The position numbers and the translations under genes were made by a program. A stretch of DNA of 64,000 nucleotides, from assembly GCA_900120415.1 (NCBI GenBank), contig FQLW01000005.1:62001-126000 (forward strand), read 5' to 3'. This document shows, piece after piece, positions 3,484 through 42,355 of the stretch. The notes below the pieces were generated by a model. It did not search any database. It saw nothing but the letters and a program-made list of their open reading frames with translations, and had not been told where the DNA came from. Numbering within the stretch: the stretch's first letter is position 1; the number at the start of each line of letters is the position of its first letter. Source of the stretch: Urmitella timonensis. GTDB taxonomy: Bacteria > Actinomycetota > Actinomycetes > Actinomycetales > Actinomycetaceae.

Positions 3484-3505
3484 TCTGATGAAAGGTATAA
3501 GAATA

Positions 3506-5724: not shown

Positions 5725-5779
5725 GTAAAACACTGGATTCCGCGAAGGCGGGAGCGGTTCTATTAAGAAAGGTAAACAA

Positions 5780-26186: not shown

Positions 26187-28828
26187 AGAGAAGTGTTTTA
26201 GCTATCAGCTCACTCGTGCTTTTTATCGTTCCCTGCTATCTGTTCTCCCTGCCTTTCCTGGGCTTTACCGGAACCATAGCGGCAAGCGGCGGGGTAATCC
26301 TAGGCTGCGGGGTTTCTGTGATCAGCCGCCGTTGGAATTTGGGAATAATCTCCACTATCACCCTAATCCTGGGGGTGTTCTTGGCTTTTGGCTCCACTTT
26401 GGCTGCCACTGACCCGCAAGGGCGTAAGTTTTACCCCACATTATCCGGTTTGGAAGTACTGGTCACCTCTACTGTTACTAGCTGGCGAGATTCCTTAACT
26501 GCGTCCCTGCCGCTAACTCCTGCGGGCGGAACGGCAGTACTCCCCTTTATTACCTGCCTCTTAACCGCGTTTATAGCGGGATTAGCCGCTATGTCACGCA
26601 GGCCTTGGCTAGCTCTGCTGCCTGCCACTACGGCGCTTGTAGTGGCAATTGCCTGGGGTGGGATTCTAGTACCTGGCGCGCCCTGGGCAGGGGGAGCCTA
26701 CTTCCTCTTTGCGCTGCTTTGGTGCGCCCTTGTGACCACTTCTGCCAGCAAAGCGCGTTCTCGCCGGGTTCAGCTAGCGGGGGTTAGCAAGAAAAATACT
26801 ATTACCCGCCCGCTAGTGATTATGGCCCTTACCCTATCGGTCTGCCTGGTAGCGGGGGCTTTGGCTGGGGTAAGCGAACGTGGAAACCGCGAAGTGTTGC
26901 GCAGCCACGTCCTCCCGCCGGTAGACCTGGAAGATTTCATTTCCCCGCTAGCTTCCTTTAGGCATCTTTCCCGTGACTGGAAAGACAAAACCATTGCCGA
27001 AGTGAAGAACTATCCGGCGGGAAGTCGAATGCGTTTTGCCACCATGAACGCTTATGACGGTACGGTTTTCAAAATTGATCCCAACTTAAACGCCCAATTT
27101 GTTCAGGTAGATTCAGTTTTAGATAAAGAGGTAACGCCTGGAGCAAACGCCCAGGTCAAATTGGTTAATTATGATCAACCCTGGGTTCCGCTGCTGGGGA
27201 ATGCGAGTTCTATAACAGTCAATGGGCAAAGCAAACCGGTTATCTATTATTCACAGTCGCTACGCTCTGCTTTCGCAGCTTCTAATCCAGCCGGTATGTC
27301 TTATCGTCTCAGGTTTTCGCGCGACCTTAACCCCAGTGATGCTCGGATTTCGGGTCTGGAATTTGACACTATTACACAAGGAAAGGACGAAGCGGTTCCT
27401 ACCGAAGTAATTGAGCTAAACAACCAGCTAACCGCGAGGGCGACCACTCCTTTACAAAAGGTGCGCAACGTGGAGTCTTACCTTTCGGGGCAAGGATTCT
27501 ATTCTGACGGCTCCGATGGGCTGTCTAGACCAGGACACCGCGCCTCCCGCATGGCGCAGTTCTTCCAAGGGCAGCAACTAATCGGTGACGATGAACAATA
27601 CGCGGTAGCAATGGCACTAATGGTGAGGTCTTTCGGGGCTCCGGCGCGGGTGGTGCTCGGAGCCTACCCGGCAGATAAAAAAGCCGGTGGAAACCTAGAA
27701 CTCAAAGGGGATAACGTTCATGCCTGGGTGGAAGTGAAGTTTAAGGAGGTGGGGTGGATAACGTTCGACCCCACACCTCCTAGGGAGCGAGTTCCCCGCA
27801 CCGACCAGCCGCAACCAAAATCAGTTCCCAAGCCGCAGGTGTTGCAGCCTCCGCCTCCGCCGGCCACCCCGCCGGTGTTGCCTCACGTGGAAAAACAGGC
27901 GCACGCCGATAATCCCTCTACTGGTATGCAGATATTAGAGGCACTGGCACAAGTCGCAAAATATGGTTCCTGGCTGTTACTGCTGCTGTCCCCAATCCTG
28001 GCAGTTTTAATAGCTAAATGGTATCGCGCCCATCGGCGTCGAAAAGCTAAAGAACCTGCTAGACGGCTTAAAGGTGCGTGGGAAGAAATAATTGACCGCT
28101 TCCGCGATAGGGGAATTCGCCTCCCAGCGGGGACTACCCGACAAGAAGCCGCCTGGATAATAGACACCTATTTAGGGGCAATGAATAAAGAGAAACCGCA
28201 GTCGGGCGCGCGGGAGTTAGCGGGGATTGCTGACTTTTTGGATTATGGACCCGATCAGGCAGAAGGACTTGACCCAGATTGGGCATGGAAATTGGTTAAA
28301 CAGCTAACCGTCAGCTGGAAAGCGGCAGCTGGAAAAGGGAAAGCACTGGTGGCGGCGATTCGCCCGTCCTCGCTCTATAACCGGTTTATACGTGGTCACC
28401 TGGGCAAGAAACTCGCAAACGCCCCCGCAATAGGACGAATGTTTACTCCCCGCAAAGAAATCTATCTACCTAGCCTCTCCCTAGGATTAACCCAGCAGGA
28501 ATACCGGCAGCTACGTACGCCTCTTGCTCCCTCCACCGGTCAAACCGAGGTGGTTTCTGCTAGATCCAACACCGTATTTACGGAAGCCACCAGGCTTTCA
28601 AAAGTAGGGTTACCTGAGGTGGGGATAGATTTTAGTGATAGCACTAGCCTGGCTGTCTCGCACAAGCTAACTGGGGGAGAGGGCGTAGAGGACGAGACTC
28701 ACCTGGCAACAGTACAGACCTTTGAAATAGGAAATACCCTAGACTTTACCCGCGGGGTGCAGGAAGTTAGCAGCGGGGAGGAAACCATCTTCAAGAAAGG
28801 GGATAATCATGAACCAAACTCCCCCTAG
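26183..28828 (+). CDS. Transglutaminase-like (TgpA-type) membrane protein lacking the catalytic Cys
   Basis: An 881-residue protein with about six N-terminal membrane helices, an extracytoplasmic transglutaminase-like domain, a Pro-rich linker, one further helix (about 590-612) and a cytoplasmic tail. In the core the usual G-x-C-E-Q-F-A is GDDEQYA at residues 468-474, so Asp470 takes the place of the nucleophilic Cys. His513 (DNVHAW) and Asp529 (TFDPTP) of the triad remain. Without Cys it should not work as a transglutaminase or protease and may be a binding domain. It starts at GTG overlapping the DUF58 stop and overlaps the kinase gene by 20 bases. Confidence 0.88.
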   Translation: MKRSVLAISSLVLFIVPCYLFSLPFLGFTGTIAASGGVILGCGVSVISRRWNLGIISTITLILGVFLAFGSTLAATDPQGRKFYPTLSGLEVLVTSTVTSWRDSLTASLPLTPAGGTAVLPFITCLLTAFIAGLAAMSRRPWLALLPATTALVVAIAWGGILVPGAPWAGGAYFLFALLWCALVTTSASKARSRRVQLAGVSKKNTITRPLVIMALTLSVCLVAGALAGVSERGNREVLRSHVLPPVDLEDFISPLASFRHLSRDWKDKTIAEVKNYPAGSRMRFATMNAYDGTVFKIDPNLNAQFVQVDSVLDKEVTPGANAQVKLVNYDQPWVPLLGNASSITVNGQSKPVIYYSQSLRSAFAASNPAGMSYRLRFSRDLNPSDARISGLEFDTITQGKDEAVPTEVIELNNQLTARATTPLQKVRNVESYLSGQGFYSDGSDGLSRPGHRASRMAQFFQGQQLIGDDEQYAVAMALMVRSFGAPARVVLGAYPADKKAGGNLELKGDNVHAWVEVKFKEVGWITFDPTPPRERVPRTDQPQPKSVPKPQVLQPPPPPATPPVLPHVEKQAHADNPSTGMQILEALAQVAKYGSWLLLLLSPILAVLIAKWYRAHRRRKAKEPARRLKGAWEEIIDRFRDRGIRLPAGTTRQEAAWIIDTYLGAMNKEKPQSGARELAGIADFLDYGPDQAEGLDPDWAWKLVKQLTVSWKAAAGKGKALVAAIRPSSLYNRFIRGHLGKKLANAPAIGRMFTPRKEIYLPSLSLGLTQQEYRQLRTPLAPSTGQTEVVSARSNTVFTEATRLSKVGLPEVGIDFSDSTSLAVSHKLTGGEGVEDETHLATVQTFEIGNTLDFTRGVQEVSSGEETIFKKGDNHEPNSP

Positions 28829-30263
28829 TATTCCCGGATTTAGTATGCAGTCCCTGCTGGGCAGAGGGGGATTCGCTGATGTCTACCTGTATCGACAAAA
28901 GCGCCCCGAACGTAAAGTTGCTATCAAAGTGCTGCGGGAACTTGGAAGCCGAGAAGGCAGACAAGTTTTTGCAACCGAAGCCGACTCTTTGGCGCTAACC
29001 AGCGCCCATCCGGCAATCCTCTCCCTCTATCAAACCGGTAAACTTCCTGATGGACGCCCTTATCTGGTGTTGCAATACTGTCCGGTAGCAAATCTTTCGC
29101 AAAGGGTTCGCAGATACCCGCTGTCAGCGGAACAAGCCCTAGACACCACGATTCGCTTGGCAGGTGCTTTAGAAACGGTACATCGAGCCGGTTTGGTACA
29201 TCGTGACATTAAACCGGCGAATGTACTAATTTCTGAATTCTCAACCCCGGTATTATCAGATTTTGGCTTAGCTCTGCCTTTAGGTAAACCGGTACTTCAC
29301 CGCGATGTTTTAGGACTGTCAGTACCTTGGGCGCCGCCAGAACAACATGACGAGAACTCTTGTGCCGCTGCCGCTACCGATATTTATTCTCTAGCTGCAA
29401 CTATGCATTCGCTTTTGACCGGTCGCAGTCCCTTTGAGATACCCGGAGAAGATAACTCTGCCAATGCGCTCACGCGGCGGATTTTGAGCCTTCCTCCTCG
29501 GCTAGATGCTCCGCAACTGGTTTCTCCGATTCGTGAAATATTGGCTTGGGCGCTGGAAAAAGACCCCGGGCAGCGACCTAAGAGCGCCGCCGATTTAGGT
29601 CAGGCGCTTCAAGATGCCCAGCATCGCCTAAATCTTCCACCTACCAGTATGGATATTGCTAGCGCTAATCCTACTTTGGCGCAGGTCAGTACCGATGCAG
29701 ATGCTACCCGCTTGAAAGGTAGTGGATTCGGTTTTCAAGAAACGGCAGGGTCAGCTGGTTCGGGGCATCAAGACAGTCCTCTAATCGTGGGGAGCGGTTC
29801 TTCTTTGGCGCTGTCTCGTTCGCTAGTGGGTGCTCCTAAAACAAGTTGGCGCCGAATCGTCCTGGCAATAATTGCTGGCTTTGTACTGGTGACCGGGACC
29901 GGAGCCGGGGTGGCATACTATCTGAAATCCGGGACTACTTCAGTCAAAAATACCAACAGTTCAAGTGCCCCGTTGATTACCGCGTCGCCCGAGGACGGAA
30001 TTGTTGAGGAAGTGCCTCCAGTGAGCGACCTAACGGCAAAGGCGGGAAATGATGGGCAAACAGTTTTGAGTTGGAAACCTGGGAAAGGCGACACTCCTGC
30101 CTCCTACCAGGTGCAAGAGAGCGTAGATGGAAAAAATACCGGTAACTATAATGTCTCGGAAGCAAAAATCGCGTTGAAAGCCAAGAATGGGAAATGGTGT
30201 GTAAAGGTATTCGCGGTTAGCTTAGATGGAAAAAGCTCACCTGGGGTAGACTGGTGTCAATAG
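28809..30263 (+). CDS. Membrane Ser/Thr protein kinase with extracellular FN3-like domain
   Basis: A 484-residue Hanks-type kinase. Kinase domain about 10-275: glycine loop GRGGFADVY, Lys in VAIKVL, catalytic loop HRDIKPANVL, DFGLA and the APPEQ segment. A juxtamembrane linker, one helix (about 350-372) and a Thr/Ser-rich stalk lead to an extracytoplasmic FN3-like domain (about 400-484, VSDLTAKAGNDGQTVLSW). No PASTA domains are present, so it is not PknB. Its gene begins inside the end of the preceding gene, and an FHA protein follows, a likely phosphothreonine reader and substrate. Confidence 0.92.
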   Translation: MNQTPPSIPGFSMQSLLGRGGFADVYLYRQKRPERKVAIKVLRELGSREGRQVFATEADSLALTSAHPAILSLYQTGKLPDGRPYLVLQYCPVANLSQRVRRYPLSAEQALDTTIRLAGALETVHRAGLVHRDIKPANVLISEFSTPVLSDFGLALPLGKPVLHRDVLGLSVPWAPPEQHDENSCAAAATDIYSLAATMHSLLTGRSPFEIPGEDNSANALTRRILSLPPRLDAPQLVSPIREILAWALEKDPGQRPKSAADLGQALQDAQHRLNLPPTSMDIASANPTLAQVSTDADATRLKGSGFGFQETAGSAGSGHQDSPLIVGSGSSLALSRSLVGAPKTSWRRIVLAIIAGFVLVTGTGAGVAYYLKSGTTSVKNTNSSSAPLITASPEDGIVEEVPPVSDLTAKAGNDGQTVLSWKPGKGDTPASYQVQESVDGKNTGNYNVSEAKIALKAKNGKWCVKVFAVSLDGKSSPGVDWCQ

Positions 30264-30302
30264 GCAAGAGCAAAGCTGCCCCTTGGTTATGGAGGAAAAG
30301 AT

Positions 30303-31007
30303 ATGGATAACAACCCTTACCAGTACTACCCAAACCAGTCAGGTAACGCTAATGCCGGTTATGTTCCGCCCAGCGGTATCTATGGGATGCCCGAGGCGGC
30401 TCCTTCAGGGCAAATGCCGATGAATCCTAACCCCTATGGGCAGCAGTTTAGTTCCGGTTATGCAAATCCCTACGACCAGCAACCGGCTGCTCCGGAGTAT
30501 CCCGGATATTCTCCGCAAGGAATGACCGGCTACCAGCAACCGGCGCTTGAATCGCAGCCCCCCTATCAACAGCCAGAATTTAATCCCCCGGCTTCCTATC
30601 AGCAACCAGCAGACTATGGGCAAGCTCAATATGGGGTTGAGCAGCAAAGCCGTCCTAGTTTTAACTACACGGTTACTTCGGGGCAAGGGCAGTCCATGAT
30701 TTTAGATAATGCGATTGTGGTCGGTCGCCGTCCCGAGGTCGCAACCTCGTCCTATCCGCAGGCGCAAGCAATGACGGTTCCCAGCCCGGCAAAACAGATT
30801 TCTCGTAGCCACTGTTTGCTTTATATTGATGGGGGTGGAAACCCCTCCCTGAAGGATTTAGAGTCGGTAAACGGTACCCGTTTGCGTCGCGGCGGGCAAA
30901 CTCATGCGATTGATCCTGCCTGTCCGATAGTGCTGCAACCAGGCGATATTGTAGATGTTGGAGAGGGGCAATATCTGTCGATTGGGACTGCTCCCGCCGG
31001 ATACTAA
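30303..31007 (+). CDS. FHA-domain protein with Pro/Gln/Tyr-rich N-terminus
   Basis: A 234-residue protein. About 1-115 is low-complexity, rich in P, Q, Y, G and N (repeats like YQQP). About 120-230 is an FHA domain: IVVGRRPE, the phosphothreonine-binding ISRSHCLLY and SVNGTRLRR segments are all present. FHA domains bind phosphothreonine, so the adjacent kinase is the obvious partner; the disordered N-terminus could carry its target sites. It is the last gene of the operon, 39 bases after the kinase stop. Confidence 0.92.
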   Translation: MDNNPYQYYPNQSGNANAGYVPPSGIYGMPEAAPSGQMPMNPNPYGQQFSSGYANPYDQQPAAPEYPGYSPQGMTGYQQPALESQPPYQQPEFNPPASYQQPADYGQAQYGVEQQSRPSFNYTVTSGQGQSMILDNAIVVGRRPEVATSSYPQAQAMTVPSPAKQISRSHCLLYIDGGGNPSLKDLESVNGTRLRRGGQTHAIDPACPIVLQPGDIVDVGEGQYLSIGTAPAGY

Positions 31008-31234: not shown

Positions 31235-32905
31235 CTAATCAATACCTAGGGCTTTGCGTGCCTTTGCGCGGGCATCTCCGCCATCAAGTGCCGTCAGTAT
31301 TTCGTAGGCGGCATTTTCGCACTGTTCTTTGGTTACTTGCTCTAGCTGGGCTCCTACTCCCGGAATGGCGGAAGCAGCCATAGATAGGGAAGTGACCCCC
31401 ATACCGATTAGGACACAGGCTAAAATCGGGTCAGCCGCTGCCTCCCCGCATACTCCTACCGGTTTTCCAAGTCGTTGTCCCGCTTTAGCAACCCGGGAAA
31501 TCAGGGTTAAAACTGCTGGTTGCCAGGGATCAGTGTAGGTTGCCAGGTTAGCGTTCATTCTGTCGGCGGCCATCACGTATTGGGTGAGGTCGTTAGTGCC
31601 AATCGAGACGAAATCAACTTCCGCTAGGAACTGGTCAATCATGATTGCAACTGCCGGAACTTCTACCATAATTCCGGCAGTTAGATTCCGTTCTCTAATC
31701 AGTTTCGCTACCCATTTCGCTTCGGTAAGGGTGGAAACCATAGGAACCATTACCCAATTTTTTCCTTCGTGTTCCTGGGCGGCTTGGGAGATTGCGTCTA
31801 ATTGGCGGGTGAAAAGCTCCTGGTCAATGCCGGTGGTTCTCAGGCCCCTTACCCCCAGTGCCGGATTGGGTTCTGCATCTAGAGTTGCCCAAGAAATTGG
31901 TTTGTCCGAACCGGCATCTAGGGTGCGAGTAACCACTTTTTTATCCGGGAAAGCTGAAAATACTTGCGAATAAATATCGGCTTGTTGGCTGGTAGTGGGC
32001 TCTTTAGCTGAATCGAGGAAACAGAGCTCGGTGCGGAAAAGTCCCACTCCCTGTGCATATCCCGCAGCGGCTTTCTTCGCGCCCTCTCCGTCCTGTACGT
32101 TAGCCAGTAATTCGACCGCTTCGCCACTGGCGAGACGGGCAGGGCCTGACCAGTTTCGGATAGCTTCCCGAGCGCTCAAATCGGCTTCAACTTTGGGTCT
32201 AGCCACCTGCGGGGTTATTCCGGTGGAGATGCTTCCCAAAGAGGCATCGATGAATACTGATTCTCCTTGCGGGATTTCATGTAGCTGACGCGCTGCAACT
32301 ATGCAGGGGATTCCCAGTTGGCGAGCAATGATAGAGGTATGGGAGGTCGGGCCGCCCTGTTCGGTTACTAAAGCTAAGATTTCTTCCGGGTTTAATCCGG
32401 CGGTGTCTGCGGGGGCTAAATCATCGGCAAATAGTACAGATGGCTCGCTTAGTTGGGGTAGTCCCGGTTCGGGCTCTCCTAAAAGTTCAGCGACAACCCG
32501 CTGGCAAAGGTCATTGAGGTCGGTGGTGCGTTCTGCCATTAACCCGCCGGCTTTCTCGAACATTCCACAAAACATTTCGGTGGTGGTGACTACGGCGACC
32601 GGGGCGGGAGTCCCTTTTTTAATCGCGCCGACTACCATTTTCTTGAATCCGGGGTCGCGAGAAAGCTCTGCCTGGGCGGCAAGTACATCCGAGGCGCTAC
32701 CTACGGTTTCCTTGGAGCGTTCGCGTAGTCGCGAGGAGACGGTTTCGGCGGCTTGGGTGTAGCGCTGAATCTCGTCTTCGCGTTTGTCTAGAGAAATGAT
32801 TGTGGAATCTAGTTTGGGGATTTCAAAACGACTAACCCAGGCGACTGGCCCATAGGCGAGACCATTTACTACCGGTGTTCCATAAATCGTGTTTTCTGTA
32901 GACAT
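31235..32905 (-). CDS. ptsI: PTS enzyme I (phosphoenolpyruvate-protein phosphotransferase)
   Basis: A 556-residue EI, normal length. It transfers phosphate from PEP to HPr. The phosphorylated His is in GGPTSHTSIIAR; the PEP-binding segment LFRTELCFLD, the metal-site region GIMVEVPAVA and the C-terminal GVCGEAAADP with the active Cys are intact. The ATG at 32905 is chosen because GAGGAGGA lies just upstream; an upstream in-frame ATG at 32950 would add 15 residues of non-family sequence. It is divergent from the deoR-fruK-fruA-ptsH operon and shares its regulatory region. Confidence 0.95.
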   Translation of the reverse strand: MSTENTIYGTPVVNGLAYGPVAWVSRFEIPKLDSTIISLDKREDEIQRYTQAAETVSSRLRERSKETVGSASDVLAAQAELSRDPGFKKMVVGAIKKGTPAPVAVVTTTEMFCGMFEKAGGLMAERTTDLNDLCQRVVAELLGEPEPGLPQLSEPSVLFADDLAPADTAGLNPEEILALVTEQGGPTSHTSIIARQLGIPCIVAARQLHEIPQGESVFIDASLGSISTGITPQVARPKVEADLSAREAIRNWSGPARLASGEAVELLANVQDGEGAKKAAAGYAQGVGLFRTELCFLDSAKEPTTSQQADIYSQVFSAFPDKKVVTRTLDAGSDKPISWATLDAEPNPALGVRGLRTTGIDQELFTRQLDAISQAAQEHEGKNWVMVPMVSTLTEAKWVAKLIRERNLTAGIMVEVPAVAIMIDQFLAEVDFVSIGTNDLTQYVMAADRMNANLATYTDPWQPAVLTLISRVAKAGQRLGKPVGVCGEAAADPILACVLIGMGVTSLSMAASAIPGVGAQLEQVTKEQCENAAYEILTALDGGDARAKARKALGID

Positions 32906-32983
32906 TTGTCCTCCTCGCTGAGGTCGGTTCAATTGAAATAAGTCTTTCATGATTGAGTTATTTTTTCAAGAAAGCTCGCAGCT

Positions 32984-33040
32984 AAACCATAATAAACCAC
33001 AAAAAGAAGGACAAAAACCCACAAAAACCGGAAATAAACC
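32984..33040. promoter_or_regulatory. Five helically phased AAACC boxes (probable DeoR-type operator)
   Basis: AAACC occurs at 32984, 32994, 33015, 33025 and 33036, that is at spacings of 10, 21, 10 and 11 bases, all on the same face of the helix. An inverted copy (GGTTT, 33067-33071) follows about three turns later. The boxes lie between ptsI and the deoR gene, directly upstream of a good promoter. Phased same-strand repeats of this kind fit cooperative binding by the DeoR-family repressor encoded next to them; which protein binds is inference. Confidence 0.5.
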
Positions 33041-33052
33041 CACTAATATCTC

Positions 33053-33081
33053 TTGTTTTTGCTTGGGGTTTTACCTAGAAT
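33053..33081 (+). promoter_or_regulatory. Sigma-70-type promoter of the deoR-fruK-fruA-ptsH operon
   Basis: TTGTTT (33053-33058) and TAGAAT (33076-33081) are separated by 17 bases, close to the consensus. Transcription would begin near 33088, about 50 bases before the repressor ATG. It lies right after the AAACC boxes. Confidence 0.55.
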
Positions 33082-33137
33082 GTTTATGTTGTTTCCGTTT
33101 TTTGGAATATCTTTTTGGCGTTAAGGGGAGGGCGAAG

Positions 33138-33908
33138 ATGCCGGTTCACAGCGGAGGGCGGCGCTTACAGATTGAACAAACGCTAGCGCAATTTGGGCAA
33201 GTGTCTATGCGGGACTTAGCTAATCGTTTTGAAGTATCGGACGAAACCATTCGCCGCGACCTCGATATTCTAGCTGAGCAAGGCAAAGCTAAACGGGTTT
33301 ACGGGGGAGCGGTTACAACTCGCGAGATTGCCGAATCCCAACTGGCAGAACGGATGAAAATCAACAGCGAGCAAAAGCAACAAATCGCTCAGCTCGCCCT
33401 CAGCTATATTCCCGAGGGCGCATTTACGGTTTTCATAGATGCCGGCTCTTCGACCGCCTATTTTGCTAAGCTCCTGCCAGATCGCGCAGATTTGCTGGTA
33501 GTAACCAACTCTGCGGCAATCGCGTCCGCAATAGGGGCGGACACTCGCAACCTGAAAATACATTTGATTGGGGGGATGTTGCGTGAGTCCACCCTGGCAA
33601 CTGTAGGGGCGCTGGCCGTGCAGTCCGTGCGCGCGATTCACCCCGATTTGACCATTCTCGGCACAAACGGGATGGATCCTCTGGATGGATATACTACTGC
33701 TGACCTCGAAGAAGCCGCGGTAAAACGGGCAATGGTGCAAAGCAGTAATCGCTGCCTGATGCTAGCGGACTCCGATAAATATGGGCATACCGCTACTGTT
33801 CAATTCGCTAGTCCCGGCGAAATCGAAATCTTGATTTCCGATCAACGCCTAAAGGAAATCGCCGGTAAAGACTTGGAAAAACTAGCGAAGAAAGTGTTTT
33901 TGGCATGA
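33138..33908 (+). CDS. DeoR-family repressor of the fructose operon
   Basis: A 256-residue DeoR regulator: N-terminal helix-turn-helix (VSMRDLANRFEVSDETIRRD) and a C-terminal sugar-phosphate sensor domain (IDAGSSTAYFAKLL, LIGGMLRE, DLEEAAVKRAM, DSDKYGHT). The ATG at 33138 follows GGGGAGGG; an upstream in-frame extension is not family-like. Its stop overlaps the fruK start (ATGA). By analogy with FruR-type DeoR proteins, fructose-1-phosphate is the expected inducer; this is inferred from the operon. Confidence 0.9.
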   Translation: MPVHSGGRRLQIEQTLAQFGQVSMRDLANRFEVSDETIRRDLDILAEQGKAKRVYGGAVTTREIAESQLAERMKINSEQKQQIAQLALSYIPEGAFTVFIDAGSSTAYFAKLLPDRADLLVVTNSAAIASAIGADTRNLKIHLIGGMLRESTLATVGALAVQSVRAIHPDLTILGTNGMDPLDGYTTADLEEAAVKRAMVQSSNRCLMLADSDKYGHTATVQFASPGEIEILISDQRLKEIAGKDLEKLAKKVFLA

Positions 33909-34876
33909 TTATTACCTTGAGTGCAAACTCTAGTTTGGATAAAACCGTAAACCTGGCACAGGCCCTGGTGCCGGGGATTGTTCATCGCATCACCTCAACC
34001 CACACTGACGTGGGAGGTAAAGGAATAAATGTGGCACGGGTAGCCCAAGAGGCTTTGGCTGCGGTTCGCTGCGTATTGCCCGCCCGCCCTCAAGACCCGA
34101 TTCTAGGGCTTTTAGATCAGGTAAAACTGCCGTATGTGAGCACCGATATTTCCGAAGCGGTGCGTACTAACCTCACAATCATTGATGACCGGGGGCAAAC
34201 CACCAAAATAAATGAACCGGGCCCAACTCTTACCGCCGGGCAGCAAAAATCGCTGCTGGGGGCGCTTAAAGAACAGGCTAGAGATTTAGAGGACGCAGAC
34301 TGGGTGGTGCTTTCCGGGTCTTTACCGCCCGGCTTGCCGGATGATTTTTACCTCACCTGTCTAAAGGAAATGGAAACTTGCCCCGGACGGTTCGCGCTCG
34401 ATACCTCTGGGAGCCCTTTACGCGCCCTCGGGAAAGCCCTGGGAACCGTAAGGGTAGATTTGATGAAACCGAACTCTTTTGAACTTGCCGAGCTGCTGGG
34501 AGGCAACGGAGCTGAACTGGAAAACGCTGCCGCCAGCGGTGATTTATTGCCGGTGGCGCGAAAAGCTAAAGAGCTTAGTGAACGCGGGGTAGGGGCAGTG
34601 CTCGCAACCTTGGGTAAAGCTGGAGCCATCCTAATCACCGGCGAGGGCGCGTGGCATGGAAGTAGCCCCGATGTCCCGGTACGTTCAACAGTTGGAGCTG
34701 GCGATTCGGCTCTAGCAGGCTATATCTTGGCGCAAATGGCAGGGCGACCCCCCGAAGAATGCTTAGCTAGGGCTTTAGCCTACGGGGCTGCTGCCTGCAC
34801 CAAAGAAGGAACGCAGCCACCTCGGCCAGAAGAAATTCATCCCGAACAAGTCGCGATAACCAAACTCAGCCTATAA
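33905..34876 (+). CDS. fruK: 1-phosphofructokinase
   Basis: A 323-residue PfkB-family kinase. The substrate motif VGGKGINVARVAQ and the ATP/catalytic motif STVGAGDSALAGYI are present, with the TLGKAGAILI segment in between. In this operon (deoR upstream with a 4-base overlap, fructose EIIABC 25 bases downstream) it should convert fructose-1-phosphate to fructose-1,6-bisphosphate. Tagatose-6-phosphate kinase activity is the main alternative for the family, but the fructose PTS next to it settles the likely role. Confidence 0.93.
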   Translation: MIITLSANSSLDKTVNLAQALVPGIVHRITSTHTDVGGKGINVARVAQEALAAVRCVLPARPQDPILGLLDQVKLPYVSTDISEAVRTNLTIIDDRGQTTKINEPGPTLTAGQQKSLLGALKEQARDLEDADWVVLSGSLPPGLPDDFYLTCLKEMETCPGRFALDTSGSPLRALGKALGTVRVDLMKPNSFELAELLGGNGAELENAAASGDLLPVARKAKELSERGVGAVLATLGKAGAILITGEGAWHGSSPDVPVRSTVGAGDSALAGYILAQMAGRPPEECLARALAYGAAACTKEGTQPPRPEEIHPEQVAITKLSL

Positions 34877-34901: not shown

Positions 34902-36995
34902 ATGGAAGAGCAAAAGTTGATAATCCCGCAGCTAGTTAGCTTAGATGAACCGCTGGGGACAGAAAAAAACCAGGTGATAACCGCGCTCGCCGCAAAAATT
35001 GCTGCCAGTGGGCGCGCCACTGAAGCAGGTTTGATTAATGACCTGATGGCCAGGGAAGCTCAATCTGTCACCGGTATGCCCGGTGGAATCGCGATTCCTC
35101 ACTGCCGCTCAGAGGCGGTAACAGTTGGCTCGCTTGCGTTTGCCCGGCTTAAAGAACCAGTAGATTTTGGGGCTAAGGATGGGCCGGCAGATTTAGTTTT
35201 CATGATTGCCGCTGCTGAGGGGCAAGGACAAGCCCATTTGAAACTGCTGCAAAAACTAGCACGCAAACTGGTAGATAAGGAATTCTTAGCTGGTTTGCGC
35301 TCGGTTGAATCTGCTCAACAGGCAGCGCAAATCATTATGGAGGTAGTGTCTCCCTCCGCTGCCCCCACTGCTCCGGCTGTCTCTACCCCCAAACAGCCTG
35401 TAAGCACTGAAGAAGCGCCGGCACTACCGGAATCAAAACCGCCTATTACTTCCAAAGCGGAAAGTGCGAAAAAAACGGACAAAAAAGATGATAAAGACCG
35501 CCATAGCCAGGAAAAATATCTGGTAGCAGTTACTTCTTGCCCCACCGGGATTGCCCACACCTATATGGCGGCAGACTCCCTGATTAACAAAGGAAAAGAA
35601 CTGGGGATTCCGGTACACGTAGAGGCGCAAGGATCAGGGCATATTGACCGCCTAGATTCAGCCCTAATTGCCGGGGCAGCAGGGGTGATTTTTGCCCATG
35701 ACGTGAGCGTACAGATGCCGGAGCGATTCTCACATCTGCCAGTTGTAGATGTGGGAGTAAAAGCCGCAATCAACGATCCTGGCAAACTAATTAGCGAAGT
35801 AATGACAAAAAAGAAAGACCCAAATGCTGGGTCAAAACCTGCCGCACAACCCGCAGAACCAGCAGAAACCTTGAACTGGGGACAGCGAATCCAAAAAGCG
35901 GTAATGGCAGGGGTGTCATATATGATTCCCTTCGTGGCGGCCGGAGGGTTACTGATTGCACTCGGTTTCCTAATTGGCGGTTATGACGTTGCGGGACTGG
36001 CCCAAGATATTTCTCTGAACTTCTCCCTGTGGAATTTACCCTCGAACGGGCCATTCGAGGGTAATATAATCACTTCCCGTGCCGGATTCCCGCTGTACCT
36101 GGGAGCATTGCTTACCTACCTGGGGCAAACCGGAATGAGTTTCCTGGTGCCAGCCCTATCAGGTTACATAGCTTTCGGATTAGCGGGACGACCCGGAATT
36201 GCCCCTGGTTTTATCGGGGGAGCAATCTCGGTAGCGCTAGGAGCTGGATTTATCGGAGGGCTGGTGACTGGGATTATCGCCGGTCTTATCGCCAACTGGC
36301 TATCTACCCTAAAATGCCCGCGTTGGTTAGCCGGTTTAATGCCGGTAGCAATCGTACCTCTGGTAGCTTCCTTACTGATGGGACTGTTAATGCTATTACT
36401 GCTGGGACGCCCACTGGCGGCTTTAATGAGCGCGCTGCAAAAATGGTTGAACTCTATGGGGGGTTCTTCTGCGATTTTGCTGGGTATCGTTATCGGATTG
36501 ATGATGTGCTTCGATTTGGGCGGTCCGGTAAACAAAGCAGCCTACCTGGTGGGTACGGCGGGATTATCCCAAGCCACTGGCGGTGCTTATGAATTTATGG
36601 CAGCAGTAATGCTAAGCGGCATGGTTCCACCGTTGGCGCTGGCGCTTTCTTCTACGCTGCGTCCTAAACTTTATTCCCCGGCAGAACAGCAAAATGGTAA
36701 AGCAGCTTGGCTATTAGGTTTATCTTTTATTTCTGAGGGCGCGATTCCTTTTGCTGCCGCCGATCCCTTGCGGGTAATCCCCTCAATGATGGCGGGAGGA
36801 GCGCTCACCGGCGCATTGTCAATGCTTCTAGGGGTGCAGTGCCGAGCTCCGCATGGCGGAATCTTCGTCCTTTTCGCCTACGACAACATTATTGGGGCGC
36901 TACTTGCACTGGTAATGGGAGTAATCGTGGCTGCTATCGGGGTAACTTTTGCAAAGATGATGCGCAAAAACCCCAGCAAAAAGTCAAGAGTTTAG
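34902..36995 (+). CDS. fruA: PTS fructose transporter subunit EIIABC
   Basis: A 697-residue fused fructose permease. EIIA occupies about 1-150 with the phosphorylated His in GGIAIPHCRSE. A Pro/Ala/Lys-rich linker (about 155-205) leads to EIIB (about 205-300) with the active Cys in VAVTSCPTGIAHTYMAA, then EIIC (about 325-690) with 8-10 membrane helices. It imports fructose as fructose-1-phosphate, using phosphate from HPr. AAGGAG precedes the ATG. The order A-B-C and the length fit the family. Confidence 0.95.
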   Translation: MEEQKLIIPQLVSLDEPLGTEKNQVITALAAKIAASGRATEAGLINDLMAREAQSVTGMPGGIAIPHCRSEAVTVGSLAFARLKEPVDFGAKDGPADLVFMIAAAEGQGQAHLKLLQKLARKLVDKEFLAGLRSVESAQQAAQIIMEVVSPSAAPTAPAVSTPKQPVSTEEAPALPESKPPITSKAESAKKTDKKDDKDRHSQEKYLVAVTSCPTGIAHTYMAADSLINKGKELGIPVHVEAQGSGHIDRLDSALIAGAAGVIFAHDVSVQMPERFSHLPVVDVGVKAAINDPGKLISEVMTKKKDPNAGSKPAAQPAEPAETLNWGQRIQKAVMAGVSYMIPFVAAGGLLIALGFLIGGYDVAGLAQDISLNFSLWNLPSNGPFEGNIITSRAGFPLYLGALLTYLGQTGMSFLVPALSGYIAFGLAGRPGIAPGFIGGAISVALGAGFIGGLVTGIIAGLIANWLSTLKCPRWLAGLMPVAIVPLVASLLMGLLMLLLLGRPLAALMSALQKWLNSMGGSSAILLGIVIGLMMCFDLGGPVNKAAYLVGTAGLSQATGGAYEFMAAVMLSGMVPPLALALSSTLRPKLYSPAEQQNGKAAWLLGLSFISEGAIPFAAADPLRVIPSMMAGGALTGALSMLLGVQCRAPHGGIFVLFAYDNIIGALLALVMGVIVAAIGVTFAKMMRKNPSKKSRV

Positions 36996-37031: not shown

Positions 37032-37292
37032 ATGGCTTCCAAAACTGTAAAAGTTGGCTCTTCAGTAGGTTTACATGCACGCCCCGCGGCTATGGTTGCG
37101 GAAAAGGCTGGCGAATTTGATGAGGAAATCACTTTAGCCACTGCCGAAGAAGGCCCCATTGATGCATCATCGATGATGCTGATTATGACGCTCGGTGCCG
37201 AATGTGGTTGCGAGGTCACGGTAGAAAGCGAAAACGAACAGGCAGTAACAGTTATTGCGGAACTGATTGAAAAAGACCTAGATTCCGAGTAA
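37032..37292 (+). CDS. ptsH: Phosphocarrier protein HPr
   Basis: An 86-residue HPr. Active-site His15 lies in VGLHARPAA. The regulatory-serine position is kept as Ser46 in DASSMMLIMTLG. The ATG at 37032 follows GAAAGGTAG and gives the canonical N-terminus. It closes the fru operon, 36 bases after fruA. It receives phosphate from the divergent ptsI product. Confidence 0.95.
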   Translation: MASKTVKVGSSVGLHARPAAMVAEKAGEFDEEITLATAEEGPIDASSMMLIMTLGAECGCEVTVESENEQAVTVIAELIEKDLDSE

Positions 37293-37419: not shown

Positions 37420-38181
37420 ATGCATCCTAAAACCGCGTTCATTGTTGTCTCGCAATCGCAGACCCTGGCACGAGGGGTGTGTGAAGTGGTTGCCTCCCTA
37501 GCACCCGAGGTTTTGATTGAGCCGTGCGGATGTCACGATGAAGGCTTGGGCACTGCCACCGAGATTATTAGCGCGCAGGTTTCGGTGATAATGGAAAAGC
37601 TCAGCGAGCAAGACTCAATTGTGCTCATGACCGATTTCGGTGCAGCTCGCCTGGCTTGTCAGCAGGTTATCACCGATTTAGGGATGCGGGTGCTGCGTTT
37701 AGGGCGCGGTCCGATAGTGGAAGGAACCATGGCGGGGGCAGTAGCCGCCTCCCAAGGGGCTGGACTGGCGGAAATCTTACGGGCAATTAGTGCCGCTTCG
37801 CAGTTTTTCCCCGAAGAGGACGCAGCTGATATTTTGCCTCCACCACCGGCTCTAGATCCCTTAGCACCCCGTACAGTGCTTTATAGCGGTGAGCATCCTC
37901 TATCTGCTCGCCCCGCAGCGCGGCTAGCTAGAATCGCGACCGGTTTCGATGCCCAAGTAACCCTAAATGGGGTGCAAGCAGGCAGCGTCCTCACCCTCAT
38001 GGGGTTAAAAATAAACCCCGGCGACGAGGTAACTATTGCCGCTACCGGATCCCAGTCGCGCAACGCCCTAGACGCGGTTGAAGCAGAGCTAACTGGGCAA
38101 ACTGCGTCCTCAGCTAAAGAATCTTCCCAGGCGGTGCAGCCAGGAGAGGTTCACTCTTTACCGGTTTCCCCGGATAGATAA
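37420..38181 (+). CDS. DhaM-like EIIA fused to an HPr-like domain, both phospho-sites lost
   Basis: A 253-residue protein with the DhaM architecture: EIIA-man-like domain (about 1-130, FIVVSQSQTLARGV, IVLMTDFGAA, EGTMAGAVAAS), a Pro-rich linker, then an HPr-like domain (about 150-230, LSARPAARLARI, LMGLKINPGDEVTI). In active DhaM the first motif is VSHS and the second is LHARP. Here Gln12 and Ser162 stand in for the two phosphorylatable histidines, while flanking residues are kept. No dhaK or dhaL is nearby. It lies 127 bases after ptsH. It should not pass on phosphate and may be a binding or regulatory protein (inference). Confidence 0.8.
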   Translation: MHPKTAFIVVSQSQTLARGVCEVVASLAPEVLIEPCGCHDEGLGTATEIISAQVSVIMEKLSEQDSIVLMTDFGAARLACQQVITDLGMRVLRLGRGPIVEGTMAGAVAASQGAGLAEILRAISAASQFFPEEDAADILPPPPALDPLAPRTVLYSGEHPLSARPAARLARIATGFDAQVTLNGVQAGSVLTLMGLKINPGDEVTIAATGSQSRNALDAVEAELTGQTASSAKESSQAVQPGEVHSLPVSPDR

Positions 38182-38224: not shown

Positions 38225-38671
38225 ATGGGCGAAGAAAAGCTGGATCCCAATAAGGAATACACCCTGATTTTGGTGAAGCCGGACGGGTATCATCGCGGAC
38301 TTACCGGCAAAATCCTAGCGCGAATCGAGCAAAAAGGATACGCCATTGCCGCGCTCCGAGTGCTGCAAGCCTCGACAGATGAGCTACATGGTCATTATGA
38401 AGAGCACCGCGACAAACACTTCTTTGAATCCATGGTTGATTTCATGCGAAGCGGAAAAATCGTTGCCGCGGTTATCGAGGGTACTCGGGTAGTCGAAGGG
38501 GTGCGTTCCCTGGTGGGTTCCACTAACCCCACCGAGGCAGCGCCGGGAACCATCCGCGGAGACTTTGGTCGTGACTATGACAGTGGACATATCCAAAATC
38601 TAGTTCACGCCGCAGATTCAGCCAGTTCTGCTGCCCGCGAGATTAAAATTTGGTTTCCGGAGCTCTCCTAA
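38225..38671 (+). CDS. ndk: Nucleoside diphosphate kinase
   Basis: A 148-residue Ndk of normal length; it balances nucleoside triphosphate pools by a phosphohistidine relay. The catalytic His128 lies in NLVHAADS, the usual N-x-x-H-x-S/A-DS motif. The N-terminal TLILVKPDGYHRG and the central GSTNPTEAAPGTIRGDFG (Kpn loop and nucleotide contacts) are intact. AAAGGAAC precedes the ATG. It is 15 bases upstream of smc. Confidence 0.96.
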   Translation: MGEEKLDPNKEYTLILVKPDGYHRGLTGKILARIEQKGYAIAALRVLQASTDELHGHYEEHRDKHFFESMVDFMRSGKIVAAVIEGTRVVEGVRSLVGSTNPTEAAPGTIRGDFGRDYDSGHIQNLVHAADSASSAAREIKIWFPELS

Positions 38672-38686
38672 AGGAGCAGATAATAA

Positions 38687-41600
38687 ATGTATGTAAAGTC
38701 GCTGACGCTGCGGGGATTTAAATCCTTTGCCAGTGCCACCACTTTGCAGTTCACTCCGGGAATTATCTGCGTAGTAGGTCCTAACGGTTCCGGTAAATCC
38801 AATATTGTCGATGCCCTCGCCTGGGTGATGGGCGAGCAAGGTGCCAAGAACCTCCGGGGCGGGCAAATGTCAGACGTTATATTTGCCGGAACCACCTCCC
38901 GCAGCTCGCTCGGACGAGCAGAAGTTGCTCTTACCATTGATAATACCAATGGGGAATTGCCGATTGACTATAGCGAGGTTACGATTTCGCGTACCCTGTT
39001 TCGTCAGGGCGGCTCCGAATATGCCATTAACGGTACTCCCTGCCGGCTGCTAGATATCCAAGAGCTACTGTCTGATACCGGTATGGGACGCAATATGCAC
39101 GTGATTATCGGGCAGGGCAAACTTGACCAGGTGCTCTCTGCTGATCCCTTAGCGCGGCGCGCCCTAATCGAAGAAGCCGCCGGGGTGCTAAAACATCAAC
39201 GCCGAAAAGAACGGGCGCTGCGCAAACTTGATGGACTAGAAGAAAAACTCTCTCGACTGTCAGATTTAACTAAAGAAATTCAGCGCCAACTCGGCCCTTT
39301 AGCCCGGCAAGCCAAAACCGCACGCCGCGCCGCAGTGCTACAAGCCCAAGTGCGGGATGCGGGATGCCGGATTCTAGCTGATGACCTCCAACAGCTGCGC
39401 GTCAAACTGTCTCGCTACCAGGAAAGCGGAAAATCCCAAGAGACAAAACGCGAAGAATTACACACTAAACTAGCTGCCCAGCAAGAAAAACTGCAACAGT
39501 TAAATGCAGATGCTACCCAAACCGATTTGGCGGGGCGAGCCGCTAATCTTTGGCAACAGCTGACCACTATCACCGAACGTTTGCGGGCTTTGGAGGCACT
39601 GGCGAATGAACGGGCTGCTTCCCTGGCGAAACCCGAACCCGAGCCTACCGGTCCTAGTGTTGAGCAGCGACAAGCCCATTTGGCGCGTCTACAAAGCGAT
39701 TTAGCAGCTCATGATGAGGACGCTTTGGCGCATCGTAAACAACTAGATGCGGCCGAGGTAGCACGCGAAGAAACTACTCGTAAAGTCAAGGAACTAAATC
39801 GCCTTTACCAGCAACTACGTGAGGAAGTTCAACAGAAAACCAATAAAGCTGCCCGCTTGGAGCGAGATTTAGAGACCGCCAAGGCTCACCTAGAAGCAGC
39901 CCGCTCGCGAACGCAAAGGGCGCAAGACTCGGTAGCAGAGGCTACGGAAAAACTAGCTGCGGCGCGTGCCCAACAGACAGCTCACCGCGAAGAAACGGTG
40001 ACCGAAAGCACCGATGCTGCCAGTAGATACCGAGAGTTGTCCCAGAAAGAAAACGAGGTACGTTCCCAACTAGAAAAAGCGCGTGACTGTCTGCGCGAAA
40101 GCGAAGCTAAAGTGGTGGCTGCCGGAGAAAGCGAAGCTAGCCTGGGACAGGTTTTGGCTACTTGTTCAAACCAAGCCCAAGAGGCTTTTGCTCAGGCAGC
40201 CCAGTCTCTAGGACAGTTAGCTTCCCTGATTAGTGTGCCTGATTGTTGGGAGCAAGCAGTCGCCGCGTTGCTAGGACAAGCTGGAGTCGCCCTCGCTATA
40301 GAAGATTCCCAGTTAGAGGCTGGTTTACAAGCGGTCAAAGGCGCGAAGGGACAAGTTAGCTGGGTGGTAAGTAGGGGAGAATCTGGTTCAGCTATTCCCG
40401 TATCTGAGACCAAGGAACAATCTAAGTCAGGTGAAATCGCTGCTACAGAGGTTATTTCAGCGCCTAAGCAGTTACATTCGGCGCTAAAACAATTGCTAGA
40501 TTCGTGCTATTTAGCTACCGATTTAGGGGCAGCAAAAAGAATAATCGAGGAAATTCCCTCGGCGCGAGTAGGGCTGCCCGATGGCACTATTATCGGTAAA
40601 TATGCCGGTTTTACCGGCAGTGGCAGCGTAAATCAGATTGAGGTTGAACGGCGATTGCGCCTAGCGCGCGAGGCACTCGCCAAGGCTGAAAAAGACAAAG
40701 AACACGCCGATAATCAGGTTAAACAGCTAAATAAGGAACTATCGCAAGCATCGTCGGATTGCGCACAAGCACTGAAAAGTCTGCGAGCTGCCGATGCCCA
40801 GGCAGCTGCCCAAGCCCAACAGCGGGCGCTACGGGAAGCCGCAGTCAGGGGAGCGGAAGAGGAAGAAAAACGTGCCCAAACAGAACTGGCACAGGCAAAC
40901 ACCAGTTTTGACGCTTGCAGCGAAAAAGTCCAGCAGGCTGAAAAAGCGCTAAACGATTTTGGAGCGCCTGAAGATTCAGCACCCCTACAAGACCTTGAAC
41001 AGCAACTAGAGACCGCTCGGGCAGCCGATTTGGCTGCCCGAGAAAAAGCAGCACAGGCACATTTAAAGCTGTCCGCCACCACCCAACTTACCAATAGTTT
41101 ACGCGAGCGTTTCCAAGGGGAAGTTAAAGCTTTGGAACGTTTCCAGCTGCGCCTGGCGGCTCGCAGCCAGCGCGAAATTGAGCGTGCCACTAAATCGAAG
41201 CGAATGAAACAAGCGTCTTATTGGTGTCAAGAGTTTGCTGGCCGGGCAGCGCAGGTAGCCCAGGTAGCTAAAAGCTGGCGAGATAGCGCCGATGCTGCCC
41301 GCCTAGCATCCTCTAATGCGGCTAATGAAGTCCGTAAAGAGATTGACGGCTTGAACAGGGAACTAGCAGAGCTAAATGATTTAAGCCGCCGCGATGAAGT
41401 GGCCGCAGCAGAATATCGGGTACGCTCCGAACAGCTAACTGAGCAAGCCCGAGAGCGTTATGCACTTTCCCCGGAAGAATTAATATCCTCATTTGGGCCG
41501 CAACAATTGGTACCTACCCCGGATTTGCTCGCTAGGAGAGCCGAAAATGAAGCTGAGGATACCCAGGTATCCTCAAACCAAGAACTTGACGCTAACGCTT

Positions 41601-42355
41601 TACCGGAAAATAGCTCGCAAGCCGGCGGTGATACTGAAGTTAGAACTGATTTTGCTAGCGAGCCGACTGTGGATGATAAAAGTCAATGGCGTCCCTATGA
41701 CCGGGCCGAACAAAGCGCATTGCTAGATAAAGCCACTCGCGCTATCGCCCGGTTAGGAAAAGTGAATCCTCTGGCTTTGGAAGAACATCAGGCTCTGGAA
41801 AAACGCTTCGAGTTTTTAATGGGACAGCTTAGTGATTTACGTACCTCAAAAGCCGATTTATTAGTGGTGGTGCGCGAAGTAGATAACCAGGTAAAAGAGG
41901 CATTCACTCAGGCATTCACCGATATCTCTAACGAATTTACCGAGGTATTTTCCCGACTTTTCCCCGGGGGTACGGGTTCTCTTAAGCTCACCAATCCTGA
42001 CGATATGTTAAGCACCGGGGTAGAAGTGAACGCCCGACCTGCCGGAAAAAATGTGCAGCGCCTGTCACTGCTTTCTGGTGGGGAACGTTCTTTAGCCGCC
42101 TTGGCGTTCCTGATTGCGATTTTCAAAGCCCGCCCCTCGCCCTTCTATATTTTGGACGAGGTCGAAGCGGCCTTAGATGATTTAAACCTGTCCAGAATGC
42201 TGGAGCTGTTTAAACAGCTACGTAAAGTAAGCCAAATGATTGTGATTACCCACCAAAAACGCACGATGGAAGTAGCTGATGCCCTATACGGGGTGACTAT
42301 GCGCGAGGGCGTGTCTCGAGTAATCTCGCAGCGCCTTGAGCGGGCAGATAGCTAA
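38687..42355 (+). CDS. smc: Chromosome segregation protein SMC
   Basis: A 1222-residue SMC ATPase. N-terminal head with Walker A GPNGSGKSNIVDAL, long coiled coil (about 170-500), hinge (about 505-670), returning coiled coil (about 675-1000), and C-terminal head with signature LSGGERSLAALAFL and Walker B FYILDEVEAALDD. An acidic, Ser/Glu-rich insertion of about 60 residues interrupts the returning arm just before the C-terminal head, around residues 950-1010. The family condenses chromosomes with ScpAB. AAAGGAG precedes the ATG. Confidence 0.96.
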   Translation: MYVKSLTLRGFKSFASATTLQFTPGIICVVGPNGSGKSNIVDALAWVMGEQGAKNLRGGQMSDVIFAGTTSRSSLGRAEVALTIDNTNGELPIDYSEVTISRTLFRQGGSEYAINGTPCRLLDIQELLSDTGMGRNMHVIIGQGKLDQVLSADPLARRALIEEAAGVLKHQRRKERALRKLDGLEEKLSRLSDLTKEIQRQLGPLARQAKTARRAAVLQAQVRDAGCRILADDLQQLRVKLSRYQESGKSQETKREELHTKLAAQQEKLQQLNADATQTDLAGRAANLWQQLTTITERLRALEALANERAASLAKPEPEPTGPSVEQRQAHLARLQSDLAAHDEDALAHRKQLDAAEVAREETTRKVKELNRLYQQLREEVQQKTNKAARLERDLETAKAHLEAARSRTQRAQDSVAEATEKLAAARAQQTAHREETVTESTDAASRYRELSQKENEVRSQLEKARDCLRESEAKVVAAGESEASLGQVLATCSNQAQEAFAQAAQSLGQLASLISVPDCWEQAVAALLGQAGVALAIEDSQLEAGLQAVKGAKGQVSWVVSRGESGSAIPVSETKEQSKSGEIAATEVISAPKQLHSALKQLLDSCYLATDLGAAKRIIEEIPSARVGLPDGTIIGKYAGFTGSGSVNQIEVERRLRLAREALAKAEKDKEHADNQVKQLNKELSQASSDCAQALKSLRAADAQAAAQAQQRALREAAVRGAEEEEKRAQTELAQANTSFDACSEKVQQAEKALNDFGAPEDSAPLQDLEQQLETARAADLAAREKAAQAHLKLSATTQLTNSLRERFQGEVKALERFQLRLAARSQREIERATKSKRMKQASYWCQEFAGRAAQVAQVAKSWRDSADAARLASSNAANEVRKEIDGLNRELAELNDLSRRDEVAAAEYRVRSEQLTEQARERYALSPEELISSFGPQQLVPTPDLLARRAENEAEDTQVSSNQELDANALPENSSQAGGDTEVRTDFASEPTVDDKSQWRPYDRAEQSALLDKATRAIARLGKVNPLALEEHQALEKRFEFLMGQLSDLRTSKADLLVVVREVDNQVKEAFTQAFTDISNEFTEVFSRLFPGGTGSLKLTNPDDMLSTGVEVNARPAGKNVQRLSLLSGGERSLAALAFLIAIFKARPSPFYILDEVEAALDDLNLSRMLELFKQLRKVSQMIVITHQKRTMEVADALYGVTMREGVSRVISQRLERADS

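Follow-up and report, generated by a model that had tools for sequence, protein, structure and literature searches.

What becomes of a PTS phosphocarrier once both of its phosphorylatable histidines are gone? The question is raised by an open reading frame at 37420–38181 (forward strand, ATG start) of the window, i.e., the whole 64,000-nucleotide stretch of DNA analyzed here. Analyses of the frame, Pfam matches and orthologues identify the product as a 253-amino-acid EIIA-Man-like/HPr-like protein without either phospho-histidine, termed pseudo-DhaM below. Residue 12 is Gln within VVSQS (codon CAA, 37453–37455, forward strand) and residue 162 is Ser within PLSARPA (codon TCT, 37903–37905, forward strand), where canonical relatives have VSHS and GLHARPA. 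Canonical DhaM (TIGR02364; PDB 3ct6, 3cr3) is the phosphoryl donor of PTS-dependent dihydroxyacetone kinase, and becomes multiply phosphorylated before DhaL takes the phosphate (PMC6643234, in excerpt). Pseudo-DhaM is like DhaM in two-domain order, fold and chromosomal place, but differs from it in the loss of both phospho-histidines, the lack of adjoining dhaK and dhaL, a new CxCHDEGL loop and a family score below the cut-off.

The EIIA-Man/DhaM-like domain spans residues 5–128 (37432–37803) and the HPr-like domain residues 151–226 (37870–38097), both on the forward strand. In Pfam, the former matches EIIA-man (PF03610; residues 7–119, 27.2 bits, cut-off 21.4) and the latter PTS-HPr (PF00381; residues 157–222, 59 bits, cut-off 23). 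The combination of EIIA-Man-like and HPr-like domains that characterizes DhaM (TIGR02364/NF008478) is thus seen both in Pfam and in fold matches. The best NCBIfam matches are DhaM models, with 56.3 bits for TIGR02364, which does not reach the cut-off of 98.25; two orthologues give 53.1 bits (L089) and no match at E 1e-10 (L091), and the canonical relatives scanned give 107.2 (L093), 122.7 (L012) and 125.0 bits (L196). With the HPr family model TIGR01003 (cut-off 47.9), the window protein falls short at 40.8 bits, whereas L089 and L091 exceed the cut-off (55.6 and 54.9 bits). A PHROGs search yields only two matches, both with E > 0.3.

An AlphaFold2 model built from 7 sequences (mean pLDDT 76.1, pTM 0.50) is fair to confident within the domains and loose at their joint, and the relative placement of the domains was not used. 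The first domain matches 3b48, a protein of unknown function (Z 17.2, the top match), other EIIA-Man proteins, and DhaM structures (3cr3_C, Z 15.3, 2.2 Å over 118; 3ct6_A, Z 14.7); the second matches HPr and Crh structures (Z about 11). Matches to DegV/FakB and DhaK structures are read as shared fold only. In the model, a loop and a helix come after each of the strands at residues 5–10, 33–35, 66–71 and 92–95, a topology that should bring Gln12 and the CxCH loop to one common sheet edge.

The C-terminal tail (residues 227–253; 38098–38178, forward strand) is variable (pN 0.399) and has pLDDT under 50 at residues 228–253. In the window protein (38140–38178) and two Varibaculum cambriense proteins (L084, L086), this otherwise variable tail ends in an LPVS-like string, a likeness that may reflect a short motif for binding or mere chance.

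A protein search of 99 genomes, comprising the window's own and related ones, gives matches in 73. Nine genomes of three Actinomycetaceae genera carry pseudo-DhaM: six of Varibaculum, two of the Nanchangia genus and one of a genus represented by a MAG. The Varibaculum six are the window genome, which probably belongs to this genus or very close to it, and five others, two of which (G004, G005) are placed there solely by a shared genus code; the nine include two V. cambriense genomes, V. vaginae, Nanchangia anserum and two Actinomycetaceae MAGs. Identity to the window protein is 75–78% in the five congeneric orthologues and 52, 46 and 44% in the other three (G038, G060 and G032, respectively).

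Neither histidine is found in any of the nine proteins. The histidine of the EIIA domain is kept in 0/9 clade members vs 62/62 canonical family loci, and exactly the same counts hold for that of the HPr domain. These 62 loci comprise 60 stretches, chosen among the matches listed for the 193 of 213 family genomes that matched, plus L092 and L093. Further 58 of 58 canonical loci have both histidines: 21 are from the family, of which 8 repeat genomes already in the 62, and 37, chosen out of 158 matching genomes among 396, are from other families of the order. Overall, both histidines are kept in all 112 distinct canonical genomes read (75 of the family, 37 of the order), and no intermediate with a single histidine is seen among these and the nine clade genomes. 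With both histidines absent in all nine members, the pattern of loss is not a matter of chance.

The replacing residues themselves are not fixed: position 12 is Gln in eight members and Val in one, and position 162 is Ser in six, with Asp, Gly and Lys once each. The first-pass annotation was right that Gln12 and Ser162 stand at the phospho-histidine places of a DhaM-type protein in an intact frame, a state that extends to all nine orthologues in three genera; Gln and Ser are not the conserved features. Selection for these two residues as such is not supported, as both positions vary.

The conserved novelty, which that annotation did not mention, is the CxCHDEGL loop (CGCHDEGL in the window protein; residues 36–43, 37525–37548, forward strand), which replaces a canonical (A)GGxDDG-type loop. 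Cys36, Cys38 and His39 are present in all nine clade proteins and in none of the 62 canonical ones. Searched as a DNA pattern, C-x-C-H-D-E-G-(L/F) occurs in 9 of 213 family genomes and 3 of 36 genera, namely in all six genomes of the window's genus, both of genus g28 and the single one of genus g34; the reversed control pattern has no match in these genomes. Two peptide patterns run over wider genome contigs reveal no further true clade member within the reach of those patterns; an Ilumatobacter MAG locus, a match of only 16 residues, is read as chance. The aligned nine share, besides this loop, Phe7, Ser11-x-Ser13, TLARG, CEV, a DP(L/Y)APR linker (DPLAPR in the window protein; residues 146–151, 37855–37872, forward strand), RPAA and SVLxLM. 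The histidine loss, the new loop and the DPxAPR linker are thus fixed in the clade.

Both tree and gene order indicate where this protein comes from. In a tree of 71 proteins, from which the five trait columns were removed, the nine group together (100/100) as a single clade nested among canonical DhaM proteins, and their neighbor is canonical L093 of genome G010, which has dhaKL (96/85); bootstrap support for the tree is not fully settled. One change of state is enough to explain the histidine loss. The folC, dhaK and dhaL genes of L093 exceed the NCBIfam cut-offs (TIGR01499, TIGR02363 and TIGR02365, respectively). In genome G010, the sole HPr domain (one PF00381 match) sits in this canonical DhaM (L093, 6777–7490) and EI is present; there, the DhaM HPr domain may serve the whole PTS.

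The usual canonical gene order is folC-dhaK-dhaL-dhaM-ndk-smc. Among the 62 canonical stretches, some of which stop at contig ends, folC is found in 54, ndk in 50, and dhaK and/or dhaL in all 62, with only one of the two detected in eight; in some canonical genera, ndk lies between folC and dhaK. This order is widely kept in the Actinomycetaceae loci read (e.g., L140–L199), uniting a PTS-dependent kinase with folate, nucleotide and chromosome genes. Three clade genomes (G038, G060, G032) have folC-(rnh)-X-ndk-smc without dhaK and dhaL, where X is the pseudo-DhaM gene, and the window and the other five Varibaculum genomes have ptsI'-fruA-ptsH-X-ndk-smc; in the window, ndk (38225–38671) and smc (38687–42355), both on the forward strand, are the downstream genes of the ancestral order. 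As X precedes ndk-smc in either arrangement, it occupies the place of dhaM. Pseudo-DhaM is hence a descendant of dhaM. Neither dhaK nor dhaL is near the gene at any of the nine clade loci (eight stretches and the whole window), which bears out one part of the initial description of the locus, whereas the placement immediately behind ptsH is confined to Varibaculum.

The absence of DhaK and DhaL partners reported for the window extends to its assembly (99% complete), in which Dak1 (DhaK) has no match and the only Dak2 match, a 651-amino-acid ORF outside the window, scores 19.5 bits against the Pfam cut-off of 27. In total, five of the nine clade genomes have no dhaK match: the window genome, G002, G004, G005 and G060 (80% complete). 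Their Dak2 matches are weak only (21–29 bits, open frames of 498–682 amino acids) and just reach the Pfam cut-off in G002, G004 and G005; dhaL-like genes beside dhaK in other genomes give at least 131 bits, and weak Dak2 matches in long open frames appear in 8 of 12 genomes searched. DhaL is thus unlikely as a lasting partner, as five of the nine genomes have only such weak matches. The other four (G001, G003, G038, G032) have dhaK and dhaL at other loci.

Clade genomes also encode DhaM-HPr-EI fusions (open frames of 817–932 amino acids) at a locus apart from pseudo-DhaM. Both histidines are present in four of the five fusions read, and the domains of one are confirmed by Pfam; the fifth (L239, Nanchangia) has His and then Arg in a poor alignment. 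The fusions and pseudo-DhaM are alike in their EIIA-HPr start, but the fusions look active and belong to a separate locus. Fusions with both histidines intact also occur in the dhaK-less genomes G004 (L237, 3711–6161) and G005 (L238, 3969–6422), appearing there as orphan, active-looking proteins. In Nanchangia genome G032, a second dhaK-dhaL-dhaM locus (L239, about 3095–6750) looks damaged: dhaK matches are broken up between reading frames, and the HPr part of the DhaM-like frame is poor.

Loss of catalytic residues has not been followed by loss of constraint. In 15 pairs of the six Varibaculum genomes, the median dN/dS of the pseudo-DhaM gene over the window's own columns is 0.076, and neighboring genes give 0.071 (ndk), 0.077 (ptsH, 12 usable pairs), 0.081 (ptsI), 0.100 (smc) and 0.101 (fruA), all of these values being rough as dS is near saturation (medians 1.0–1.7). 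The pN/pS ratio is 0.182, with 0.129–0.209 for the neighbors, and mean pN is 0.099 in the EIIA-like domain, 0.116 in the HPr-like domain and 0.080 in the linker (residues 129–150). The open frame is kept in all nine clade genomes. The notion that the intact frame is under selection is thereby substantiated for the six genomes of Varibaculum, where a neutral vestige is very unlikely, and simple decay in one strain, the outcome that would have undone it, is rejected by this purifying selection together with the nine histidine-less orthologues.

Of 219 positions compared, canonical proteins conserve 34 at a level of 90% or more; the clade keeps 22 of these, partly keeps 3 and loses 9, i.e., both histidines, Ser75 of the DxGS motif, Gly160, Gly38, Gly197 and three milder ones. 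Newly fixed in the clade are 11 positions, all in the EIIA domain, including Cys21, Cys36, Cys38, His39 and Gln82. In the HPr-like domain, the docking face (19 positions taken to form it, compared with the other 56) has a mean entropy in the clade of 0.54 vs 0.92 elsewhere (permutation P 0.016, single and uncorrected). Canonical proteins show the same bias (1.48 vs 1.83); therefore, the clade result says only that the face has not been released.

In the window, pseudo-DhaM stands at the end of a set of PTS genes. Enzyme I (ptsI; 31235–32950, reverse strand; Pfam) is divergent from the fructose genes on the forward strand, which comprise a DeoR-family regulator found by domain scan (32949–33908; putatively fruR-like by its place), a fruK-like pfkB-family kinase (33905–34876; Pfam) and fruA for fructose PTS EIIABC (34902–36995; Pfam, NCBIfam), followed by ptsH for HPr with an intact GLHARPA (37032–37292; Pfam, NCBIfam). 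The motifs GGPTSHTS of EI, GLHARPA of HPr, and GIAIPHC and SCPTGIAHT of FruA IIA and IIB, which we take to be the active-site motifs of these proteins, are all intact, and by these motifs the other PTS proteins of the window look active. The pseudo-DhaM gene is directly behind ptsH in all six Varibaculum genomes; no promoter or terminator is reported in the gap between the two genes, and counts for the region are within those of shuffles. In three of the nine clade genomes, PTS genes do not stand beside it. Beside ptsI, at 26183–31007 of the window, lie genes for a transglutaminase-type protein, a Ser/Thr protein kinase and an FHA-domain protein.

What, then, does the protein do? Since the loss of the adjoining kinase genes it has probably acquired a new role, likely a regulatory one, in which it would no longer pass on phosphate and would work by docking or ligand binding. 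The explanation we place first, tentatively and at somewhat less than even chances, is that of a pseudo-phosphocarrier, a non-transferring dhaM derivative that docks on one of HPr's PTS partners (EI being the first choice) under ligand control of its EIIA-like domain. Docking within the PTS is ranked first because no protein partner of canonical DhaM other than EI and a further HPr domain was found in all nine genomes. The conserved docking face and the place behind ptsH also speak for it, the one limited by the like bias in canonical proteins and the other by its restriction to one genus; against it, the newly fixed residues do not cluster significantly along the edge of the active site (3 of 11, P 0.42). 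Synteny, tree and selection show the course of events: dhaK and dhaL were lost from the ancestral folC-dhaK-dhaL-dhaM-ndk-smc operon while dhaM stayed, both phospho-histidines went before the three genera diverged, and the protein has remained conserved, in what would be a non-transferring role. The HPr-like domain would still dock on a PTS partner of HPr, primarily enzyme I, without accepting a phosphoryl group, and the EIIA-like domain, with CxCHDEGL as its remodeled active-site loop, might bind a controlling ligand, metal or protein. Like a competitor or a Crh-like effector, the protein would then tune PTS flux or report PTS state through occupancy and not through phosphotransfer. A bolder and fairly unlikely form of this idea is a two-input governor of the PTS, in which the CxCH pocket of the EIIA-like domain senses a metal, thiol redox state or a metabolite and the HPr-like domain, blind to phosphate, relays the signal by occupying EI or an HPr target.

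The strongest alternative, somewhat unlikely, is that the protein no longer belongs to the PTS at all: the EIIA-like fold, through its CxCHDEGL loop, would act in metal, redox or small-molecule binding, and the HPr-like domain would serve as a structural or protein-binding module for an unrelated partner. The invariance of Cys36, Cys38 and His39 in the clade and their absence from canonical proteins fit this, as does the predicted position of the loop, which follows model strand 2 (33–35) at the sheet edge just as residues 11–13 follow strand 1. The HPr site is free to vary among Ser, Asp, Gly and Lys, and the location of the gene away from PTS genes in three genomes also counts for it. However, all nine proteins retain RPAA and the helix-2 string SVLxLM, more than a mere scaffold might need, and the Pfam and NCBIfam scans give DhaM and HPr families plus weak sub-threshold matches, with no metal-site family among them.

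Less probable, and in our judgment unlikely, is a moved phosphoryl acceptor, with His39 or Cys36/Cys38 phosphorylated straight by stand-alone HPr and the dead HPr-like domain by-passed. His39 is invariant in the nine and by fold topology would lie near the lost His12; the clade also retains Asp72 and Gly74 of the DxG motif. In Varibaculum the gene neighbors ptsH, and EIIB domains use a cysteine. Against it, five of the nine genomes lack the usual acceptor, with no dhaL-like match beyond weak Dak2 ones, the HPr domain has lost its own histidine, and the literature searched on DhaM, His-less HPr-like proteins and HPr pseudoenzymes yields no precedent.

Regulation by serine phosphorylation at Ser189, the position of HPr Ser46, is improbable. 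Ser189 is present in all nine clade proteins, but it is as common in canonical DhaM (59/62). HPr kinase is found in none of ten genomes by PF07475 and in none by TIGR00679, a result that is suggestive only, as each model matches only 3 of 14 controls; both match Lactococcus lactis and neither matches Bacillus subtilis, which has HPr kinase. The appeal of this explanation lies in Crh, a paralogue of HPr whose regulatory role involves no PTS transfer (PMC13130090, in excerpt). Lastly, a functionless dhaM slowly decaying since the loss of dhaKL is scarcely credible: dhaK and dhaL are gone from the locus, both catalytic histidines are gone and, from the node with L093, the clade tips are 1.6–2.0 changes per column away vs 0.8 for L093, but the Varibaculum dN/dS is inside the neighbors' range, the frame is open in all nine genomes and a new motif became fixed.

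For the pseudo-phosphocarrier that we favor, two known proteins offer parallels. Crh (Bacillus/Geobacillus; PDB 1zvv, 2ak7) is an HPr-fold protein outside PTS transfer that works through binding to other proteins, as would be the case in the proposed role, but it is a single domain, is controlled by HPr kinase and belongs to another lineage. It has Gln at the His15 site, whereas the Gln of pseudo-DhaM is in the EIIA domain. DhaQ (TIGR02362), a DhaK paralogue and coactivator of the DhaKLM operon, is likewise a relative of a Dha-kinase subunit turned regulator; it has lost a catalytic residue and works with the transcription factor DhaS. DhaQ stems from DhaK, and pseudo-DhaM from DhaM. Related phospho-dead paralogues are known, then, for HPr (Crh) and DhaK (DhaQ), so that the earlier statement that no family with this feature has been described stands for DhaM within the literature searched and is too broad otherwise. 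That literature, mostly outside subscription journals, covers DhaM, EIIA-Man/DhaM proteins of Actinobacteria, HPr-like proteins and pseudoenzymes, the Varibaculum PTS, Crh and DhaQ/DhaS, and contains no account of a phospho-dead DhaM; nor do the excerpts of PMC2405797 and PMC9912610. The excerpted text of PMC13130090 places Crh, as a paralogue of HPr, outside the PTS and describes its unphosphorylated form as an inhibitor of MgsA.

Pseudo-DhaM is a clean example from nature of a phosphocarrier retained by selection after the loss of both catalytic residues, in which the canonical sister, the ancestral operon and a time bound, i.e., before the split of three genera, are all visible. It carries a warning for annotation, as genes scoring near DhaM or HPr can be unable to carry phosphate at the known sites. 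It also makes directly testable the question whether docking alone can be the mode of action of PTS carriers in Actinomycetota and, if the two-input governor were true, it would represent a new class of PTS regulator derived from a dihydroxyacetone-kinase subunit after the kinase genes had left its operon.
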